This document shows, one piece after another, positions 2,199 through 12,552 of a stretch of DNA of 12,552 nucleotides (position 1 is the first letter of the stretch; each line of letters starts with the position of its first letter). The stretch comes from Giesbergeria sp. (GTDB lineage Bacteria > Pseudomonadota > Gammaproteobacteria > Burkholderiales > Burkholderiaceae_C), in contig JAGNUJ010000043.1 in the NCBI GenBank assembly GCA_017987055.1, forward strand, positions 1 to 12,552, written 5' to 3'. Position numbers and translations under genes: made by a program. Below the pieces are notes generated by a model, which had not been told where the DNA came from, made no database searches, and saw nothing but the letters and a program-made list of their open reading frames with translations.

Positions 2199-4283
2199 AT
2201 GCCCATCCCCGAACCAGCGCGCGCCCCCAGCGCGTCGCCCATTCCCCCCGCCCCAGCGCCGCCGCAGTTCCAAACCGCCTCCCACCGCACCACTTTTGCC
2301 CCAAAGGTGGTGCTGCCGGCGTTGCTGGTGCTGGGCATCTTGCTGGTGTTTTGCGGCTTTTACCCCCAGCGCGCCGAGCGGTTTTTCTCCGGCGCACAGG
2401 GCTGGGTGGTCGGCCACTTTGACTGGTTTTACACCGTCGTCGTCACCGTCTTTCTGGTCTTTTTGGTGCTGATTGCGTCCAGCCGTTATGGCGACATTCG
2501 CCTCGGGGCAGACGATGCGGTGCCGGACTTCAGCTTTGTCTCGTGGACGGCGATGCTGTTTGCCGCCGGCATGGGCATTGGCCTGATGTACTTTGGCGTC
2601 GGCGAGCCGCTGCAACACTTTTTAAAGCCGCCGACGCAAATTGGCGGCACGCCCGCCGCCGCGCGCGAGGCGATGCAGTCCACCTTCTTCCACTGGGGCT
2701 TTCACGCCTGGGCGGTGTATGGCGCGATGGGCTTGGTGCTGGCCTACTTCGGCTTTCGCTACAACCTGCCCCTCACCATGCGCTCGGGGCTGTACCCGCT
2801 GCTCAAAGAGCGCATCAACGGCCCGATTGGCGACGCGGTCGATGCGTTTGCGCTGGTCGGCACCATTGCTGGCATTGCCACCACGCTGGGTTATGGCGCG
2901 CTGCAGCTGTCGGCCGGTTTGGGTTCACTGACCAGTTGGGACACCGGCAGCACCGGGTTTCGCATTGCCATCATCGCCATCGTCGTCGGCTTGGCCGGCA
3001 TCTCGGCCGTCACCGGGCTGGACAAAGGCGTGCGCCGCCTGAGCGAATTAAATTTGTCGCTGTCCTTCATCCTGCTGGGCTTTGTGCTGATGGCCGGCCC
3101 GACGGTGTTTTTGTTCCAAGCGCTGAGCGAAAACATTGGCAACTACCTGTCGCAACTGGTCAATATGTCGCTGCGCACCTTTGCCTATGAGCCAACGCAA
3201 GAGGCCGGCTGGTTTGGCGGCTGGACGATTTTGTACTGGGCGTGGTGGATTTCTTGGTCGCCGTTTGTCGGCATGTTTATCGCGCGCATTTCGCGTGGCC
3301 GCACCATTCGCCAGTTTGTCGTCGGCGTACTGCTGGTGCCCACGGCGTTTAACTTGGTGTGGATGACGGTGTTTGGCAACGGTGCCATCTGGATTGACAC
3401 CCATGTCGCCAACGGCGCGCTGGCGCAAACCGTCGGCAATGTGGACGCGCTGCTGTTTCGCTTCTTTGACTACCTGCCGTTTACCAGCGCCGTCTCGTGG
3501 CTAGCGATTGTGTTGATTGCGGTGTTTTTTGTAACGTCTGCCGACTCGGGTGCGTTTGTGGTCGATTCGATTGCCTCGCGCGGCAACCCGCGCTCGCCGG
3601 TGTGGCAACGGCTGTTTTGGGCGGCGGTACTGGGCGTCACCGCCGTGGTGCTGCTGCTCGCTGGTGGCCTGAAAGCGCTGCAAGCGATGACGCTGGTCGC
3701 TGCTTTGCCGGTGGCCGTCATCATGCTGGCGCTGTGCTTTGGGCTGTGGCGCGGGCTGGCGGCTGACGTAGCGCACTCGTCACAAGACCTGTCGCCAGCG
3801 ACCAACTTCTGGAGCGGTCAGCACTGGCTGCGCCGGCTGGAGCAAATCGTCCACCAATCGACCCGCAGCGAGGTGCTGGAGTACCTGCGCGCCACCGTGC
3901 TGCCGGCAATGGAGCAAGTCGCCAGCGAGCTGCGCAAGCGCGGTGTCGAGGCCACCGTTCACAGCGAAGAAGTAGCGGACGGCACGCTGCGCCTGACGAT
4001 TCCAGACCCGCTGATGCGCGACTTTGTCTATGGCGTCAAAGTGCAAGAGCGCACGCTGCCGGTGTTCTTGGTGCGCGAGGCGGCCAAAAGCAGCGCCAAC
4101 ACGCAGGTGTTTGAGCCGATCACTTTCTTTGCCGACGGGCGCCTCGGTTACGACATCCAATACCTGCGCCCCGAGGAGCTGATTGCCGACATCTTGCGCC
4201 ACTACGAGCGCTACCGCGCCATCACCGGCGACGAGCGCACCCAGCTGCTCAACCGCGCGCCGGGGCACACCGACGCGCTGTGA
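2199..4283 (+). CDS. betT: BetT-like BCCT family transporter (choline/betaine uptake)
   Basis: This 694-residue inner-membrane protein is close in length to E. coli BetT (677). A Pro/Ala-rich cytosolic tail (1-35) is followed by about 12 hydrophobic segments between residues 38 and 525. Family signatures are the glycine stretch AGMGIGLMYFGVGEP (123-137), RYNLPLTMRSGLYPLL, RINGPIGDAVD, the aromatic substrate box YWAWWISWSPFVG (346-358; Trp349, Trp350 and Trp353 match the BetP betaine cage), ISRGRTIRQFV, and FVTSADSGAFV. From about 530 to the end runs a long soluble C-terminal domain like that of BetT, finishing IADILRHYERY and APGHTDAL; in BetT this domain is linked to osmotic control. Position 128 is Gly. 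Proton-coupled BetT carries Asp there, while sodium-coupled BetP has Gly, so coupling and substrate may differ from E. coli. A weak purine-rich site (AAAGAAAGAG, 2183-2192) precedes the ATG. It is convergent with the helicase gene and has no bet enzymes next to it in this window. Confidence 0.9.
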   Translation: MPIPEPARAPSASPIPPAPAPPQFQTASHRTTFAPKVVLPALLVLGILLVFCGFYPQRAERFFSGAQGWVVGHFDWFYTVVVTVFLVFLVLIASSRYGDIRLGADDAVPDFSFVSWTAMLFAAGMGIGLMYFGVGEPLQHFLKPPTQIGGTPAAAREAMQSTFFHWGFHAWAVYGAMGLVLAYFGFRYNLPLTMRSGLYPLLKERINGPIGDAVDAFALVGTIAGIATTLGYGALQLSAGLGSLTSWDTGSTGFRIAIIAIVVGLAGISAVTGLDKGVRRLSELNLSLSFILLGFVLMAGPTVFLFQALSENIGNYLSQLVNMSLRTFAYEPTQEAGWFGGWTILYWAWWISWSPFVGMFIARISRGRTIRQFVVGVLLVPTAFNLVWMTVFGNGAIWIDTHVANGALAQTVGNVDALLFRFFDYLPFTSAVSWLAIVLIAVFFVTSADSGAFVVDSIASRGNPRSPVWQRLFWAAVLGVTAVVLLLAGGLKALQAMTLVAALPVAVIMLALCFGLWRGLAADVAHSSQDLSPATNFWSGQHWLRRLEQIVHQSTRSEVLEYLRATVLPAMEQVASELRKRGVEATVHSEEVADGTLRLTIPDPLMRDFVYGVKVQERTLPVFLVREAAKSSANTQVFEPITFFADGRLGYDIQYLRPEELIADILRHYERYRAITGDERTQLLNRAPGHTDAL

Positions 4284-4288
4284 ATTTG

Positions 4289-4328
4289 CGTGCGGTTTTG
4301 CTATTAAATAAATAGCTGCAACCGCACG
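4289..4328. repeat. Hairpin between convergent genes, built from a partial repeat element
   Basis: CGTGCGGTT (4289-4297) pairs with AACCGCACG (4320-4328), and GCTATT (4300-4305) pairs with AATAGC (4311-4316). A 2x3 internal bulge and a 5-nt loop complete the fold. The right arm begins a copy of the intergenic repeat found at 10433. The hairpin sits in the 56-nt gap between the transporter stop and the helicase stop, so it could end or stabilise transcripts from both sides. No T tract follows on either strand, so it is not a textbook intrinsic terminator. Confidence 0.6.
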
Positions 4329-4339
4329 TATTCATTGGG
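4312..4339 (+). repeat. 28-nt direct repeat, copy A, abutting the helicase stop
   Basis: This segment starts ATAGCTGCAACCGCACG and matches 10433-10460 at 27 of 28 positions; only 4335 (T) versus 10456 (G) differs. It ends at the base next to the helicase stop codon (TAG on the minus strand, 4340-4342). It corresponds to the first third of the 80-nt element at 10433-10512; the remaining 52 nt of that element are not recognisable here. Copies A and B lie in the same orientation, 6121 bp apart, on either side of the helicase gene. Confidence 0.85.
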
Positions 4340-7300
4340 CTAGAGGTCGATTTGGATGGTATTTTCAGCCGCGTCGAGCGGTTTTTCGGCCTTTTCAGCG
4401 CTTTTAGCGCGGTCAGCAATCAAGAGTTGGCGCAAGGCAACATGGATTTTCTCCAGCGTGCCGCCCGGGTTGACCCACCAGTCGGTCGACCAAATCCGCA
4501 AAATCTCCCAGCCCAAGCCGCGCAACACATGTTCGCGCAGTTTGTCGCGGTCGCGGGCGGTGGCGCTGCTGTGGTAGGTCGCGCCATCGCACTCAACGCC
4601 GGCCAAATAGCGCCCGGGAAAGTCCGGGTGGACCACGCCCAAATCGACGCGGAACGAGGACGCGCCAATTTGCGTGTGGACGCGCCAGCCTTTTCTCTCC
4701 AGCGCTGCGGCCACGCCGGCTTCAAACGGGCTGTCAAAGTCGCCTTGGCTGCCGTGGTGCGAATCGACCAGCGCTTTGGGGCCGCGCTCGGCGAACTCCA
4801 AAAAGTGCTTCAAATCACGCACACCATTGGCTTGGGTGCGCGACAAATCCAGCTGGTCACCGCGCAGACTGGAGAACACGCGCAACTCGTGGCGCGCGCG
4901 GGTGACGGCGACGTTCAAGCGGCGCTCGCCGCCGTCGCGGTTCAAGGGGCCAAAGTTCATCGACACCGCGCCGGCAATGTCGGGGCCGTAGGTGATAGAG
5001 AAATACATGATGTCGCGCTCGTCGCCCTGCACGCTTTCTAGGTTTTTGACGAACAGCGGCTCCAGTTCTGCATCCGAAAAATACGACTCCAGCTCGGGGT
5101 CTTTGCGCCGCTCGGCGTCGAGCAGGTCTTCAATCAAATGCTGCTGCTCGGTGTTGAAAGTGACCACGCCTATCGTCAGCCCCGAAGCGCGAAACTCGGG
5201 CGACTGCAAGCGCGCCACCAAGTCGGCCACCAGCGCTTTGGCTTCAATCTGGTTGGTGCGCGCGCCGCCTTTTTCGTAGCGCCCGGCCACCCAGTGAAAG
5301 CTGACCGCGTTGTCCTGCGTCGCCGGCGACGGAAACGTCACCAGCGCGCCGCCGTAGTACTTGTGGTTGCTAAAGGCGATCAAGCTCTCGTGGCGCGAGC
5401 GGTAGTGCCACGACAGGTTGCGCGTTGGCAGGCTGGCACCCAGGCATTCGTCCAGGATGCTTTCCAAGTCGCTTTCCACGTCCGGCATGTCGTCGTCCGA
5501 GCTGTTTTCGCGGCCAAAAAAGTTGGTGGGCGGCAGCTGCTTGGGATCGCCCACCATCACCACCTGCTTGGCGCGCGCCATCGCACCGACCGCGTCCCAG
5601 ACCGGAATTTGCGAGGCTTCGTCAAAAATCACGATGTCAAAGTTGCTGCTGTTGGCCGAAAGGTACTGCGCAATCGACAGCGGGCTCATCAGCAAGCAAG
5701 GCGTCAGCTGCAGCACCACCGAGGGAATCTCTTGCAGCAGTTGGCGCAGCGGCAGGTGTTGGCGTTTTTTGGTGATTTCGCGGCGCAGCACGCCCCATTC
5801 GCTGTTGCGCTCGACGCTGTCGGCGGCCGGCAAATTGGCGCTGAGTTTGGCGCGTATCCACTGGCGCGTGGCGGTGGTGAATTCTTCGTCCAGCGCGCGA
5901 AAGGCTTCAATGCGCTGCTCGTGCTCGGCCGAGACGAAGCGCTTGAGCACGTCGTCTTCGTCCACCACTTCGGCCAGCCACCAGCGGGCGTAGTTGACCT
6001 CTAGCGCTTGCAGCGCTTGCTCGGGCGCAATCTCGCCGCATTCAATCGCATCGGCCAGCGCGCCCAAGCCAGCAGCCTGCGCCGTGGTTTTGGCGTAGCG
6101 CCAGCCGCACCACGCGTGCAGCTGCCCCGCGCCAGCTTCAACGCGCGCGGCTACTGCCGCCAGTTCACTCAGGCTGCTATCGGCAAAACTGTTTCGCACC
6201 GCTTCGGGCTGTTCGGCCAGATCGCTAAAGTGAGCGACAGCAGCGTCCAACTGCGCCAACTCGGTCAGCAATTGCTGGCAAGTTTGTTCGATAGCACCAC
6301 CGCTGGCCAGCTCGTGGTTGCGTGCGCCCAGCAGCTGCTGCAACGCTTGGCGCAGCGCTTGTGCCCCAGCGCTAGGCGCGCCAGCCCCTTCGGTCAGTCC
6401 CGCCAAGCTCGTCTGCAGCACCGCATGAAAGCGCAACGCGCCTTCGACCGCTGCGGGGGATGTATCCAAGCCGCGCCACAGGCCGGGGCAGTGATTGGCC
6501 AAACCATCCAAAGCGGACAGACGCGCTTCCAGCGCGCTGCGCGATTGCAAGCGGCGGTGCTCTTGCTGCAGCAGCGTGCCGCACTGGCCGTCGGCGACCA
6601 AGGGGTGCGCCACTTGCAAGCTACCGCGTTCGGCCAGCGGTTGGCGCTCGCGCTCAAACGCCAAGGCGGCGCGCAGCAGTTCGATATTGGTATCGTGGCC
6701 GCGCCACAGCCCGTGGCTGGCAGCAGCCAACGGCGCACACAGCGCCAGCTGCTGGTCAATGTCGTACAGCGCTTGCAAGCGCTGTGCCTCGCGCGCCCAG
6801 CGCTCGCCGCAGCTGCCTTGGGCTACCGACACCAGCGCCGACAGGGAATAAGGCCGGTGAAAACGCGCAGCTTGTAACGCCGCATTGGCCTGCAGGGCGC
6901 TGCGCATGTCCTCGGTGCGGGTTTTCAGGCCAAACCACAGGCCATCGGCCGCCGCGCCGGGGTTGACTTGGGCGACTTGGTCGCTCAGCACTTTGATGCG
7001 CACCAGCGCGGCCAAATCTTGCGCAACGTTGGGTTCGCCTGCGCCTTCGGTGACGGCTTCGAGTGCCATGCGCACGTCGCGTTGGCCTTTCCATGACAGC
7101 GGCCAGACGGCTTTTTCGGCTTTGGTCCACGCGCGTTGCAATTGCACCACGTTGAGTTGTGCCACCTCAGCGCTGTAGGACACCGACAGGCTTTGGCGCA
7201 GCTGCGCAATTTCCTCAATGCAGCGCAGGCCGTGCTCAATGTCATCACAAACCGCCGCCGGCCACGGCAGACCCAATTGAGCATGCAAGCGCTGGCGCTG

Positions 7301-10300
7301 CTCCAGTGCCGTGATGGCATGGGACAAGCGATCTTGCAGCACACTCGGCCACGCCGCCAGCAGCTGCCCCGACAGTTGGCGGTGCTGCGCCAGTTGTTGC
7401 ACGCCAACTTGTAGGGCGGCGCAAATTTGCGCACTGTCGGGCGCAGCGCAAAAGTCCCACGACTGCCCGGCCGCTTGCGGCAAAACCTCGGCCAGCGCAG
7501 CCAGTGCGCTGCGCACCGAGCGCTGCAGTGGCGGCCAGTCGATGGGATGCTGTGCGCCTAATGGCTCCCCCAGTTGCTGGGCTAATTGCCCGATAGTGCT
7601 GGCCGCCTCTTGGCTGGCCGCTTTCAGCGTTTGGGCGGCGCGCACCATCTCTTGTTGCCAGCGCACCGACCAATCGGTGGCGTAGATAGCCGCCAAGGGC
7701 GCGACGCCGGCCAATGGCTCAGCACCCACCGCCGTGGCGTTGGCACGCAAGCGCGCCGCCATCTCGCGCAACTGCGCCAGCGAGGCTTCGTCGTGCGCGT
7801 GTGGCGACGACCAGCTAAAGGGCAACTCGGGCAGCGCTGCGCCGACCACCACATGGCCGATGGCGCGGTAAATCGTCAGGCCGTTGTCGTAGCGTCGGTG
7901 CAGGCGCTCGACGTAGGTCGAAAGTTGCTCGCGCAGCCGGCTCAGCTCAAAGGCTTTGGCACTCCAACTGGCCGCATCCAACTGGCCGCTGGAGTCCCAC
8001 GATTGGCTCAGTTGGTTGAGTACATCGAGCTTGCGGCTTTTGTTGGAGTGCAGCTCTAGGCAAAAGTCCCCCAGCCCAACTTCGCGCAAGCGGCGATAGA
8101 CCACATCCAGCGCGGCAATCTTTTCGGCGACAAACAGCACGCGCTTGCCTTCGGCCAAGCACTGCGCAATCAGGTTGGCAATCGTCTGGCTTTTGCCGGT
8201 GCCGGGCGGGCCAATCAAGACGAAATCTTTGCCCTTGGCGGCGGCCATGATGGCGGCCAGCTGCGAGGAGTCTGCCGGCAGCGGGCTGAAGACTTTGTCG
8301 GGCGGGTATTCCGCGTCCAAGCGGCGCGGCTCGGGGAAAGGGATGCTGGAGCGGTACGGCTCGCGCGGCGTGTCCAGCAGGTGCGCCACCACCGGCGACT
8401 TGCGCAGGTCTTCGGTGCGGTCAACCAAGTCTTTCCACATCAGGTATTTGGCGAACGAGAACACCGACAGCACTACGTCTTCGTTCACTTCCCAGCCGCG
8501 CACGTTTTTGATGGCGGTGCGCACCCGCGTCCAGATGCCGGTGATGTCCAGCCCGTGCTCGCCCGGTGCCAGCTCGCCGGCGGGCACGCCCAGCTCCAGC
8601 TGAAAGTCTTGCCGCAGCATCTCGACCAAGGTTGGGTTAAAGCGCGCCTCGTCCTCGTGCGCTTGCAGCGTAAAGCCCGAGCGCGCGCTTTTGCGCTCGA
8701 GCAGCACCGGCAGCAAAATCAAAGGCGCTTTGATGCGCACCTCGGGCTTGTCCGGGCGCGTCCAGACCAAAAAGCCCAGCGCGACAAACAGCGTGTTGGC
8801 GCCGCCCTCTTGCAGCGCATTGCGCGCCCCCCGGTACAAATCCACCAGCCGCACGTCCAGCTCTTGGTCTTCCAAGCGGATGAAGACTTCTTTGCGCTGC
8901 AAGGCCTCGGCAGCGTGCGCGCCGTGCAAATCTTCCAGACTGCGCGCCTCGTGCAGTTGTTGGCTGCGCGGGTCTTGGCCGACCATCAACTCGGGGCTGG
9001 GCAGCAGTTTGATGCTTTGGCCAGCGGCCAGCGCGTCTTCCAGCGCCGCAGCCCCCACTTCCAACAACAACGCGCTTTTGCCTTGGCGAAAATTGAGCAG
9101 CACGTTGCGCAGCGATAAATCGAGCAGCTTGCGCTGCCAGCGCGCCAGCCGGTCTTTCGGGTCGAGTTCGGCGGTGGGGATTTCGGCCAGCGGCGTATCG
9201 CGCAGCAAAGTCGGCGCGTCTTCGATGGTGATGGGCACGCTCTCCAAGCCCTCGCCGTCCACGGGCGCTGGCGCTGGGGCGATGGCTTCGGTCAGCGCCA
9301 GCGGGCGGATGCGCGCCATGCGGGCGCGTTTGACATCGACCACCAGCTCGAATTTGTCGTCCTCGGCCTCGGCCAGTTGGCGCGTGGCTTGGGCGATGGC
9401 TTGGCTAAAGCGCACCGGCTGGCCTTGCGCGGCCAAGGTGGTCTCAAACACCAGCATCTCTTGCAGTTGCATGCGCTTGCGCACGGCGGTGATGTCGTCA
9501 ACGACGCTGCTGGAAAACACCTCTTTGCCCAGCCAGACACCGACAAAGGCGTGGCCGCGCGTAAACACCAGCAGCGGGCTGAGGCTGGCTTGCTCCAAGC
9601 AGGCCGCAAACAGCAGCGATAAATCAAGGCAAGTGGCCAAGCCCGCGTCCAGCACTTGGCTGGGGTTGCGCACTTTTTGGCCGGTGCGCTCAAAACTGGC
9701 CGGCGGCAGGGCGTAGTTGAGCTTTTTTTGCAGCACCGCCGTCCAAATCGCCGAGGCCAACTCCCACGCGCGCTTGGGGCCTTGGCTGTAGCCGTCCATC
9801 GCGCCGGGCTTGCCAGCCGCTTCCAGCACCAGCGCCGCGCTTTTGAGCACCTTGTCAATCGCCGGGTCGTTCGGCTGGACAAAGGCGGCCACCATTTCGG
9901 GCAGGTCGCCCAGCCCGCCCCACTGGTTGCGCGCCAGCAGCTCGACGGTGTAGTCGCAGCTGGCCAGCACCGTGTCAACGCTTTCAGTGCGCAGGCGCTG
10001 GTGCAGCGCAAAGTGCAGCACCGCCGGCTCGGCCTCCGTCAAACGCGACAGCAGCGCGCCGTCCAGTTGCACGTCAAGGTCGCGCAGGTCATAGGTTTTG
10101 CCAGCGGCCACCGCCTCCAAGTGCCATGTGCGCGGTTTGACAAAGGCCGGCTCAGAGGTCAAATGCAGCGTCAGCCCTTGCAGCGGCGCTGGCGTGTCGT
10201 TGACCACCGCCAGCGCTTGCAGCGCCGGCACCGCGTTTTGAAAATCCGCCAAATTGAGCTTGGCGATCACTTCCACTTCCACGCGGATAGCGCCTTGGCC

Positions 10301-10360
10301 GTTGGCGCTAGTTGCCGCGTCCACACCCATATCCATCTGCCCTAGAGGCACCTCTGTCAT
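4340..10360 (-). CDS. Giant DUF4011-type SF1 helicase-nuclease with N-terminal transglutaminase-like domain; probable defence protein
   Basis: This is a single 2006-residue reading frame with good AGGAGT spacing before its ATG. Domains in order: (a) 1-230, a beta-rich N-terminal region; (b) about 235-300, a transglutaminase/papain-like module with Cys244 (ATCLDLSLLFAA), His270 (GHAFVGVWL) and Asp288/289 as a likely triad; (c) DUF4011, with WQRKLLDLSLRNVLLNF at 408-424; (d) SF1 helicase, with Walker A GPPGTGKS 717-724, Ia about 741-747, LELHSNK 768-774, Walker B DEAS 1580-1583, motif III GDPKQLPP 1604-1611, QGDERD 1778-1783 and AVTRAR 1818-1823; (e) about 1875-1985, a Vsr/DUF559/MTES_1575-like nuclease with Glu1880, Asp1906 and the ECDG motif (Glu1923, Asp1925). 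About 700 mostly helical, Ala/Gln/Leu-rich residues separate motif Ia from Walker B. The order DUF4011-helicase-Vsr is that of the Hhe single-gene defence system as I recall it. A helicase-coupled DNA cleavage role is inferred, and no partner genes are adjacent. All core motifs are intact. Confidence 0.9.
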   Translation of the reverse strand: MTEVPLGQMDMGVDAATSANGQGAIRVEVEVIAKLNLADFQNAVPALQALAVVNDTPAPLQGLTLHLTSEPAFVKPRTWHLEAVAAGKTYDLRDLDVQLDGALLSRLTEAEPAVLHFALHQRLRTESVDTVLASCDYTVELLARNQWGGLGDLPEMVAAFVQPNDPAIDKVLKSAALVLEAAGKPGAMDGYSQGPKRAWELASAIWTAVLQKKLNYALPPASFERTGQKVRNPSQVLDAGLATCLDLSLLFAACLEQASLSPLLVFTRGHAFVGVWLGKEVFSSSVVDDITAVRKRMQLQEMLVFETTLAAQGQPVRFSQAIAQATRQLAEAEDDKFELVVDVKRARMARIRPLALTEAIAPAPAPVDGEGLESVPITIEDAPTLLRDTPLAEIPTAELDPKDRLARWQRKLLDLSLRNVLLNFRQGKSALLLEVGAAALEDALAAGQSIKLLPSPELMVGQDPRSQQLHEARSLEDLHGAHAAEALQRKEVFIRLEDQELDVRLVDLYRGARNALQEGGANTLFVALGFLVWTRPDKPEVRIKAPLILLPVLLERKSARSGFTLQAHEDEARFNPTLVEMLRQDFQLELGVPAGELAPGEHGLDITGIWTRVRTAIKNVRGWEVNEDVVLSVFSFAKYLMWKDLVDRTEDLRKSPVVAHLLDTPREPYRSSIPFPEPRRLDAEYPPDKVFSPLPADSSQLAAIMAAAKGKDFVLIGPPGTGKSQTIANLIAQCLAEGKRVLFVAEKIAALDVVYRRLREVGLGDFCLELHSNKSRKLDVLNQLSQSWDSSGQLDAASWSAKAFELSRLREQLSTYVERLHRRYDNGLTIYRAIGHVVVGAALPELPFSWSSPHAHDEASLAQLREMAARLRANATAVGAEPLAGVAPLAAIYATDWSVRWQQEMVRAAQTLKAASQEAASTIGQLAQQLGEPLGAQHPIDWPPLQRSVRSALAALAEVLPQAAGQSWDFCAAPDSAQICAALQVGVQQLAQHRQLSGQLLAAWPSVLQDRLSHAITALEQRQRLHAQLGLPWPAAVCDDIEHGLRCIEEIAQLRQSLSVSYSAEVAQLNVVQLQRAWTKAEKAVWPLSWKGQRDVRMALEAVTEGAGEPNVAQDLAALVRIKVLSDQVAQVNPGAAADGLWFGLKTRTEDMRSALQANAALQAARFHRPYSLSALVSVAQGSCGERWAREAQRLQALYDIDQQLALCAPLAAASHGLWRGHDTNIELLRAALAFERERQPLAERGSLQVAHPLVADGQCGTLLQQEHRRLQSRSALEARLSALDGLANHCPGLWRGLDTSPAAVEGALRFHAVLQTSLAGLTEGAGAPSAGAQALRQALQQLLGARNHELASGGAIEQTCQQLLTELAQLDAAVAHFSDLAEQPEAVRNSFADSSLSELAAVAARVEAGAGQLHAWCGWRYAKTTAQAAGLGALADAIECGEIAPEQALQALEVNYARWWLAEVVDEDDVLKRFVSAEHEQRIEAFRALDEEFTTATRQWIRAKLSANLPAADSVERNSEWGVLRREITKKRQHLPLRQLLQEIPSVVLQLTPCLLMSPLSIAQYLSANSSNFDIVIFDEASQIPVWDAVGAMARAKQVVMVGDPKQLPPTNFFGRENSSDDDMPDVESDLESILDECLGASLPTRNLSWHYRSRHESLIAFSNHKYYGGALVTFPSPATQDNAVSFHWVAGRYEKGGARTNQIEAKALVADLVARLQSPEFRASGLTIGVVTFNTEQQHLIEDLLDAERRKDPELESYFSDAELEPLFVKNLESVQGDERDIMYFSITYGPDIAGAVSMNFGPLNRDGGERRLNVAVTRARHELRVFSSLRGDQLDLSRTQANGVRDLKHFLEFAERGPKALVDSHHGSQGDFDSPFEAGVAAALERKGWRVHTQIGASSFRVDLGVVHPDFPGRYLAGVECDGATYHSSATARDRDKLREHVLRGLGWEILRIWSTDWWVNPGGTLEKIHVALRQLLIADRAKSAEKAEKPLDAAENTIQIDL

Positions 10361-10367
10361 AAAAACT

Positions 10368-10373
10368 ACTCCT
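10368..10373 (-). promoter_or_regulatory. Ribosome binding site of the helicase gene
   Basis: AGGAGT on the minus strand lies 7 nt from the ATG at 10358-10360. It supports this start over in-frame ATGs that would give residues 9 (Met) or 11 (Met). Confidence 0.7.
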
Positions 10374-10424: not shown

Positions 10425-10512
10425 AAAAAACCATAGCTGCAACCGCACGTATTCAGTGGGTTGCAGCTAGTTTTAGGTCTCAATCCGTTTAAATACGTGC
10501 GCTAGCAGCTAT
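10425..10512 (-). terminator. Terminator-like hairpin with T6 after the alpha-2-macroglobulin gene
   Basis: On the minus strand, transcripts leaving the alpha-2-macroglobulin gene run straight into the 80-nt repeat. Its two 21-nt ends pair at about 19 positions (ATAGCTG with CAGCTAT, then GCACGTATT with AATACGTGC, with two mismatches between them). GG and six consecutive T (10430-10425) follow at once. The loop of about 38 nt is large, and the opposite strand lacks a comparable T tract. It would separate the macroglobulin transcript from the helicase gene downstream. Confidence 0.55.
10433..10512 (-). repeat. 80-nt inverted-repeat element, copy 3 (contains direct repeat copy B)
   Basis: The element has the same length as 1057-1136 and is about 71% identical to it in inverted orientation, with near-identical ends. 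It contains the 28-nt direct repeat 10433-10460 shared with 4312-4339. It also has an internal 11-bp inverted repeat: TAGCTGCAACC at 10434-10444 and its complement at 10459-10469. Its last base (10512) is also the last base of the alpha-2-macroglobulin stop codon, and the conserved TCA flank at 10512-10514 supplies that TGA. Confidence 0.85.
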
Positions 10513-12552
10513 CATTTTTGTGAAGCTGCGTCTGCCAGCGCGGGCGCAGCCAGCACCTGCACGCGCGCATTGGGCGCAGCGCCCGACATCTCGGGCGCGT
10601 ACAGCGCCTCGACATGGCTGGGCGGCAGCGCAAAACTGCCGACGTTGTTCAGCCGCAGCGTGTATTGCATCGTCACCGTGCCTTTGGGCAGGTACTCGTA
10701 ATAGCTGCGGAAGGACTCGAAGCTGCGCTCCTCAAACGCCGGCCAGCCAGCGCCGCTGCTCTTTTCGCCCTGCGTGGCGATGGCCGAATCGCGCCCCAAG
10801 CCGCTGCCCAAAATCGTCGCGCCGGCCGGAATCGGGTCAGTGATCGCCACCCACGTCATCGGCGCGCTGGCGCTCACTTGCAGCGTCACCCGCAGCACGT
10901 CGCCGCGCGTGTATTGGCCAGCGGGCAGGGTTTTGTTGGCCTGCTCTATCGGCGTGATGGTCTTTTGAATCGCAAAGCCGGCGTTGACCGGCGCCAGCAG
11001 CGGCACGGCGGCCAGCGATTGCAGCGTCAACCACGGCTTGCCGCTGCCGCTGTGGGTGACGCTCAGCGCTTGCGCGGCGGCTTTGCCAGTGCCCCACGGC
11101 AAGAACATGCGGTTGCCCTGCCAATGGCCCGGTGCGTTCGGTGCGCCAAACCAACTGGTTTGGTGCGCCGCGCCGCTGGCATCGTCCACCTTGGCGCGTT
11201 TGACCTGCGCCCAATCGACATGGGCGGTGTCAGCGCCCAAAGCCGCTTGCGTCGTACCAGCGACGGGCGCCGCTTCAAACGCCGCCGAGAAGCGCGCCAG
11301 CGCCAAGCCGCCCCACAGGTTGGCCGTGGTGGTGCGCCAAGCGCCGTTCTGCTGGCGTGCCATAAAGCCGTTGGCCAGACGCGCAATGTCGGCTTTCCAC
11401 GCCGGGTTGTCGATGACGGCCAGCAGCAGGCGGGCGCTGTTGAGGTCGCCACCCTGCATCAGCCACCACCAGTCGTCATCTTGTTCGGTGGTGAAGGCCA
11501 GTTGGCTGCCTTGGTAGCTCAGGCGGCTGCGCAAAATTTGCTGGGCTTCTTCCAAGCGCTCGGTGTGCTGCGGAATGTTTTTCACGCGTTGCAGCACGCT
11601 CATCCAGTCGATGACGGCGTGCGTTGGCCACTGCTGCGGCGCGATGGTGATGCTGTCGAGCATCCGCGCCTGCGCCTTGCCGTAGCGCGCCAGCGCTTCG
11701 ATGGCGGCCAGTTTGCGCATCTCCAAGTCTTTGCGCGGGCTCCAGAAGTGGCGCTCAATGCGGCCTTCGACAAAGTCGATCAAGCCGCGCTCCATCGGCG
11801 CGCGCACCTCGTCGGCCAGCGCAAACGCCGGGTTCAGCCGCGCCGCTTCGTGGGCGCTGGCCAACAGGTAGGCGGTGAGCGTGTCGCTGCCGTGCTGGGT
11901 GTCGCCGTTGCGCGGCGGAAAGTAGCTGAGCAGGCCGTCGCTGTCCAAATAGGTCGGCAACTGCCCCAGCAGCGCCAGCCAGCGCTCGCTGTCGTCCATG
12001 CCGATGGCGCGGCTGGCTTGCTGCTCCAAGCAGCTGTAGGGGTAACGCGCCCACCAGTCGCGCACGCCGGGCAGGCCACTGGCCAGCGTCGGTTGCAGCG
12101 ACATTTGCAGGCCGCCGCGCCCGGGCAGTGCGCCGGCCGGTGGCTGGACTGGCAACTGGAACGCGCCATCGACCTGCACCAGCGTCGCTTGCTGCACCGC
12201 CAAAGGCACGGCGGGGACGATGCGCTGGCTGATCTTCAGCGCGTCGCTGGCACCCTTGGTGGTGGCGTCGATTTCCCATATCAGCGCCTCAAAACGCGTG
12301 TGCGCCAGTTGTGCCGGCGCGGTCACGTCCCACGCCAGTTCGCGGGTTTCGCCGGCGGCCAAATCTACCGTCTTGGGCGGCAGCTCCAGCAGCGTGGCAC
12401 GCGGTGCCAGCACCACTTGCATCGGCTTTTTGGTGGTGTTGCGCAGCGTGAACTGGGCGCGGAACTGGTCGCCCTCGCGCACCAGCGGTGGCAGGCCGCT
12501 GATGATTTGCAGGTCTTGCGTGGTGCGCACCGTGGTGCTACCGGTGCCAAAC
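10512..12552 (-). CDS. Bacterial alpha-2-macroglobulin (YfhM/YfaS family), C-terminal part (cut by window edge)
   Basis: The reading frame enters at the right window edge (FGTGSTTVRTTQDLQI) and runs 679 residues to a TGA at 10512-10514. A GTG at 12528-12530 is in frame, but the homology continues upstream of it, so it is an internal Val. The segment begins in a macroglobulin beta domain (SGLPPLVREGDQFRAQFTLRN). It then enters the helical thioester domain with YPYSCLEQQASRAIGM; the CLEQ thioester tetrapeptide is encoded at 12021-12032. The receptor-like C-terminal beta domain follows (ITDPIPAGATILGSG, FRSYYEYLPKGTVTMQYTLR). About 510 residues follow the thioester Cys, close to my recollection for E. 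coli YfhM and the Salmonella homologue. These periplasmic proteins trap proteases by covalent bonding and often pair with penicillin-binding protein PbpC. Here the next gene downstream is the helicase, not pbpC. The bait region, MG domains and signal peptide lie beyond the window. Confidence 0.9.
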   Translation of the reverse strand, partial: FGTGSTTVRTTQDLQIISGLPPLVREGDQFRAQFTLRNTTKKPMQVVLAPRATLLELPPKTVDLAAGETRELAWDVTAPAQLAHTRFEALIWEIDATTKGASDALKISQRIVPAVPLAVQQATLVQVDGAFQLPVQPPAGALPGRGGLQMSLQPTLASGLPGVRDWWARYPYSCLEQQASRAIGMDDSERWLALLGQLPTYLDSDGLLSYFPPRNGDTQHGSDTLTAYLLASAHEAARLNPAFALADEVRAPMERGLIDFVEGRIERHFWSPRKDLEMRKLAAIEALARYGKAQARMLDSITIAPQQWPTHAVIDWMSVLQRVKNIPQHTERLEEAQQILRSRLSYQGSQLAFTTEQDDDWWWLMQGGDLNSARLLLAVIDNPAWKADIARLANGFMARQQNGAWRTTTANLWGGLALARFSAAFEAAPVAGTTQAALGADTAHVDWAQVKRAKVDDASGAAHQTSWFGAPNAPGHWQGNRMFLPWGTGKAAAQALSVTHSGSGKPWLTLQSLAAVPLLAPVNAGFAIQKTITPIEQANKTLPAGQYTRGDVLRVTLQVSASAPMTWVAITDPIPAGATILGSGLGRDSAIATQGEKSSGAGWPAFEERSFESFRSYYEYLPKGTVTMQYTLRLNNVGSFALPPSHVEALYAPEMSGAAPNARVQVLAAPALADAASQK

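Follow-up and report, generated by a model that had tools for sequence, protein, structure and literature searches.

The 12,552-base Giesbergeria sp. contig JAGNUJ010000043.1, which comes from a 61% complete genome and was analysed over its entire length (the window), encodes a 2006-residue protein that, as judged by sequence, is a new member of ProA, a named family of presumed anti-phage proteins. We lean towards reading this protein as a DNA-triggered, single-protein anti-phage helicase-nuclease in which an N-terminal Cys-His-Asp module would act as a second, protein-directed enzyme. Its open reading frame extends from an ATG at 10360 to a stop at 4340 without internal stops, and an AGGAG motif ends 8 bases upstream of the ATG; together with the Pfam matches and motif positions, this bears out the initial annotation of one intact chain with its parts in the places given in Table 1. 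The NCBIfam model NF058533 (anti-phage protein ProA) matched at 2171.7 bits, above its cut-off of 1500, aligning residues 36–1999 with model positions 1–1725 of 1903. A match of this extent and score, combined with a conserved Cys-His-Asp triad, is more than a chance resemblance.

The N-terminal module is transglutaminase-like, on the basis of motif conservation and predicted fold. The triad lies in the motifs TCLD (Cys244), GHAF (His270) and VVDD (Asp288/289), and the predicted structure of residues 145–356 is confident (predicted local distance difference test 92.4, predicted template modelling score 0.92), matches transglutaminase-like folds in a structure search and places Cys, His and Asp in the expected order, with the Cys at the start of a helix and the His on a strand, so that the fold proposed in the initial annotation is supported at the level of a model. 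A larger model of residues 1–640 comprises immunoglobulin-like (Ig-like), transglutaminase-like and mixed alpha-beta parts, the first of which took up the matches listed in a fold search. Solved-structure profile searches using the N-terminal alignments gave no match, the transglutaminase-like part of the window protein matched no Pfam model, and a library of viral structures gave a single, unnamed match below 1e-3. Weak Pfam matches were obtained from other sequences, with PF01841 at a best E value of 0.016 in one of five sequences searched and, in a second Pfam set, DUF553 (transglutaminase-like) at best 8.7e-4 in 3 of 36 and PF01841 at 0.042 in 1 of 36. As a separate observation, weak to moderate matches to the first 290–330 ProA model positions were obtained for a 1713-residue protein with NHL/TPR repeats and a DUF553 transglutaminase-like match (L198:4370-9511) and for a 391-residue protein without a Pfam match (L196:5247-6422), both of which have an N-terminal signal-peptide look when judged by eye. 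The N-terminal domain pair may be an older unit that ProA has in common with exported proteins.

Conservation of the triad extends across the family. No substitution of Cys244, His270, Asp288 or Asp289 occurs in any of 121 close sequences (the best 120 of 1631 matches plus the window protein, which is thus included twice). A wider alignment of 99 rows was assembled from 117 frames above 100 bits, minus 3 duplicate records and 16 without the N-terminus, plus the window protein, with a few rows representing the same genome fetched twice; here Cys244 and His270 are each kept in 98 rows, Asp288 in 95 (Glu in 2) and Asp289 in 94 (Glu in 3), which upholds the triad originally read from the single sequence. 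Two N-terminal patterns had served to retrieve 80 homologues, the best 80 of 264, and as one pattern (FA[AS]CLEQA) adjoins Cys244, conservation in those homologues is biased upwards; 19 of the 20 rows that came via the whole-protein model instead also keep both Cys and His. The module is under purifying selection similar to that on the nuclease, with ratios of non-synonymous to synonymous substitution rates (dN/dS) against two sister proteins of 0.105 and 0.110 for the module, 0.093 and 0.136 for the nuclease, and higher values of 0.175 and 0.261 for the Ig-like part.

The remainder of the chain carries the hallmarks of a helicase-nuclease. Pfam superfamily 1 (SF1) helicase blocks at about 697–760 and 1511–1830 are split by a long, poorly conserved insert (about 800–1450), and the Walker A motif GPPGTGKS (717–724, including Lys723) is accompanied by DEASQ (1580–1584) and GDPKQLPP (1604–1611). 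Pfam assigns the C-terminal nuclease, in which the motif VECDGATYH carries Glu1923, to MTES_1575 (whole-protein E value 2.9e-34), which is Vsr-like; DUF559, named alongside Vsr in the initial annotation, is a weak match (5.5e-5). Among the 89 rows covering these positions, Glu1880 and Asp1925 are kept in all and Glu1923 in 88.

Variation within the family marks the module as an addition to this core; in one lineage it has decayed together with a nuclease residue. All nine extra relatives examined keep the Walker A and nuclease motifs, while the module is missing from seven of them (L104–L108, L112 and L078, which is Hhe-like) and the other two (L102, L103) are cut inside it, so that the core also exists free of the module. 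In a divergent pair, L109/L205 and L204 (88% identical), Cys244 is replaced by Ala, His270 by Met and Glu1923 by Ile, whereas the helicase motifs, Walker A among them, are largely kept, and Glu1880 and Asp1925 are kept. The degenerate triad and nuclease belong to one lineage and so probably reflect one event; one of the two genomes with a degenerate ProA also carries a copy with intact motifs.

These observations bear on what the module might do. One alternative is that it is a regulator that clips its own chain or a partner and thereby licenses the nuclease. Its position in cis, tied to DUF4011 via a linker modelled for the most part with low confidence, would suit such a role, as would the joint loss of the triad and one nuclease residue in one lineage. 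The same linker (356–400) is variable, with dN/dS values of 0.14 and 1.01 against two sister proteins, which speaks against a sequence-specific cut site and makes self-processing less likely, and no family-associated partner gene was seen, though no systematic test for one was made; on balance we regard regulation as unlikely. More improbable still is a non-catalytic platform that binds DNA or damage, as in Rad4/XPC, and aims the helicase. The transglutaminase-like triad is lost in Rad4, whereas the present triad is conserved, with Cys and His kept in 98 of the 99 rows, unlike in a scaffold, and the sole row without them also has Ile at nuclease position 1923.

The C-terminus of ProA proteins exists in a long and a short form. 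The window protein has 31 residues past position 1975 compared with 187–319 in long relatives, and DUF3320, found in the C-terminal stretch of the one long relative tested (L088), had no Pfam match in any of the six scanned frames of the window. A FastTree phylogeny of 87 rows (the 91 well-covered rows of the 99, minus two contig-end cuts, one truncated and one duplicate row) contains 15 short and 72 long C-termini and implies seven state changes, with the window protein placed in a group (support 98) of seven short proteins from Simplicispira and Delftia. Some of the remaining short rows could be broken frames, such as L091, which has stops inside its match. As DUF3320 is absent from the window protein and from other members, DNA recognition by a winged helix-turn-helix (wHTH) cannot hold for all members, and the natural absence of this segment argues against its need in every ProA protein.

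ProA is patchily distributed and occurs on mobile elements. Of 24 genus genomes, several of them incomplete, 4 have a protein over the cut-off, as do 27 of 299 across the phylum, the source genome included in both counts; within the genus group, sister loci come from Simplicispira psychrophila, an uncultured Simplicispira and a Giesbergeria. Plasmid matches number 462 records, 28 of them over at least 80% of the length and the top-ranked at 55% identity; by comparison, there are 2 matches among 50,697 phage records, both of which fall short of 80% length coverage. A Pseudomonas aeruginosa plasmid with a ProA homologue also carries integrating-conjugative-element genes, a homologue on a Comamonas plasmid lies close to genes for a UvrD helicase with an AAA ATPase, a PDDEXK nuclease and TIR, and one on a Klebsiella plasmid is accompanied by the toxin of a toxin-antitoxin system and no other named defence gene. 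The least probable explanation is that ProA is a cellular DNA repair or recombination enzyme and not a defence protein: its neighbours in the window are metabolic or envelope genes, an SF1 helicase plus a nuclease is a repair layout too, and P. aeruginosa has a DUF4011 gene in its core set (PMC10250203), but patchiness in genus and phylum, homologues on plasmids (one resembling an integrating conjugative element) and repeated changes of the C-terminal form all weigh against it.

A PADLOC scan of 122 neighbours of 24 homologues, called by a simple codon-based gene caller and leaving out the S. psychrophila locus (6 of 128 proteins), yielded components of Wadjet, CBASS and Pycsar among the matches listed. 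It matched 157 families at E ≤1e-10, and each of the best 25 of these was matched by at most 2 of the 122 proteins. A control of 65 genes from one genus and one site matched 24 families, 22 of them seen for the two genes of a single type I restriction-modification locus (in genome G002) and the other 2 being PtuB models. When six neighbours were checked singly, L141 matched GajB/DRT (UvrD-type) helicases in parts, L192 Mokosh and L164 CBASS E1-E2, and L144, L175 and L181 gave no match. Enrichment of defence genes around homologues is suggested by examples only, and the defence setting envisaged in the initial annotation is seen near some homologues but not in the window, where no defence neighbour was found within the 12,552 bases and all other genes that could be identified serve metabolism or the cell envelope.

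Under the favoured reading as a helicase-nuclease with a second, protein-directed enzyme, we posit that ProA would be a stand-alone, horizontally moving anti-phage protein with sensor, motor and effector in a single chain. The SF1 helicase and DUF4011 would engage exposed or replicating foreign DNA, the ATP-driven helicase would bring the C-terminal Vsr-like nuclease onto that DNA, and the same activation may unleash the Cys-His-Asp module, a second effector that could hydrolyse an amide bond in a protein of the phage or the host. We prefer hydrolysis to cross-linking here since most of the nearest folds belong to hydrolases; the DNA trigger, use of the nuclease, proteolysis and protection against phage are what we infer. 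A more specific and quite tentative proposal is a dual-effector ProA, in which one DNA-triggered helicase serves cleavage of both DNA and protein amide bonds, and both active sites are retained or lost jointly. If so, the degenerate lineage would represent a decoy, inhibitor or sensor form, accompanied in one genome by a copy with intact motifs.

Table 1. Features of the 12,552-base window, with residue numbers for parts of the ProA-family protein
Feature	Residues	Position	Strand	Remarks
ProA-family helicase-nuclease gene with N-terminal transglutaminase-like module		4340..10360	minus	2006 aa
Likely ribosome-binding site of ProA gene (AGGAG)		10369..10373	minus	read from sequence
Ig-like beta sandwich	22-142	9935..10297	minus	
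Transglutaminase-like module, Cys244/His270/Asp288	145-356	9293..9928	minus	model, fold matches, triad
Linker, variable	358-400	9161..9289	minus	mostly low model confidence
DUF4011 (PF13195)	411-582	8615..9130	minus	Pfam
SF1 helicase	697-1830	4871..8272	minus	Pfam, motifs, conservation
Vsr-like REase_MTES_1575 nuclease, Glu1880/Glu1923/Asp1925	1879-1976	4433..4726	minus	Pfam
22-base repeat ATAGCTGCAACCGCACGTATTC		4312..4333	plus	directly 3' of ProA gene
Identical 22-base repeat		10433..10454	plus	directly 5' of ProA gene, same orientation
Bacterial alpha-2-macroglobulin (bMG10), C-terminal part		10512..12530	minus	leaves contig end
BCCT choline/betaine transporter		2199..4283	plus	convergent with ProA gene
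PrpR-like propionate regulator		3-1010	minus	cut by contig end
Methylisocitrate-lyase-like gene		1163-2041	plus	276.2 bits, below prpB cut-off of 354.4

Of 37 copies of the 22-base repeat (at most 3 mismatches) in the genome sequence searched, only the two that flank the ProA gene are exact; a reversed control gave 0 copies. The copy upstream of the gene forms an imperfect inverted pair with 10491–10512. Such inverted pairs, 36 bases apart, occur at two intergenic places in the window, in the manner of repetitive extragenic palindromic elements; further copies lie at 1057–1078 and 1115–1136. In S. psychrophila, as in the window, ProA stands between the alpha-2-macroglobulin and BCCT genes, and the macroglobulin gene also adjoins ProA in genome G009; in G011 ProA lies elsewhere, with a DAHP synthase gene on one side and, on the other, genes whose AAA_2 and Proteasome domains suggest that they are hslU/hslV-like. 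No clean empty site was found: G012 and G019 have no ProA above the threshold, and their macroglobulin and BCCT matches are 0.24 kb apart, but these are co-directional, and since the BCCT gene is turned round in the window relative to these genomes, the change was not a simple insertion. In G002, likewise without a ProA over the cut-off, the type I restriction-modification locus (L070) adjoins the macroglobulin gene. It is possible that the slot beside this gene is a small defence hotspot in the genus. At the far end of the window, the PrpR-like and methylisocitrate-lyase-like genes are divergent and represent ordinary metabolism.

Helicase-nuclease defence proteins are common, and for many of them it is not known how sensing leads to killing; ProA adds to such a chain a conserved and seemingly protein-directed active site. 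The window protein shares DUF4011, an SF1 helicase and a Vsr-like nuclease with Hhe, said to originate with Gao et al. 2020, and the resemblance noted in the initial annotation is real. Assignment to Hhe was nevertheless rejected, as the NCBIfam model (NF042953) scored 857.8 bits, under its cut-off of 2000, while ProA exceeded its own; in PADLOC, too, Hhe (593.8 bits) scored below the top model PDC-S37 (1203.2 bits, for which the tool gives no cut-off). The label of PDC-S37 is that of a candidate single-protein system, PDC presumably denoting candidate systems in PADLOC. A Hhe-like protein of 1748 residues in a sister species (L078:7336-12582, genome G005) scores 1365.5 bits against Hhe and 1102.1 against ProA, below both cut-offs, and lacks the transglutaminase-like module present in the window protein. 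The label Gao Hhe appears in the available part of PMC13249269; the name PDC-S37 was not found in open-licence literature, and the matches listed there included no naming paper or test of ProA.

The layout, which the initial annotation put forward as a candidate undercharacterised system, is not new. The available part of PMC3710099 (2013) describes giant proteins of the MTES_1575 type (HEPN-transglutaminase-SF1 helicase-Vsr-wHTH), proposes protein cleavage as a further line of defence and suggests that invading DNA is recognised by wHTH domains that overlap DUF3320. As described there, these giants share with the window protein a transglutaminase-like peptidase, an SF1 helicase and a Vsr restriction endonuclease in one chain, whereas the C-terminal wHTH/DUF3320 is missing from the latter. 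No HEPN domain was found among the best 25 of 26 Pfam families (E values up to 1) and none was apparent in the model of residues 1–640; with neither HEPN nor wHTH found, assignment to the HEPN giants of 2013 was rejected. ProA (NF058533) and the window protein are alike in joining a transglutaminase-like module, DUF4011, an SF1 helicase and an MTES_1575 nuclease in one chain, and differ in that the C-terminal DUF3320 segment of the model is absent here, a short end shared by 15 of 87 rows including the window protein. Family name, model, layout and the idea of protein cleavage (2013) are thus already known, and what this analysis adds, some of which may be in print elsewhere, is the fold model, figures for conservation and selection, the absence of DUF3320 and a doubly degenerate lineage.

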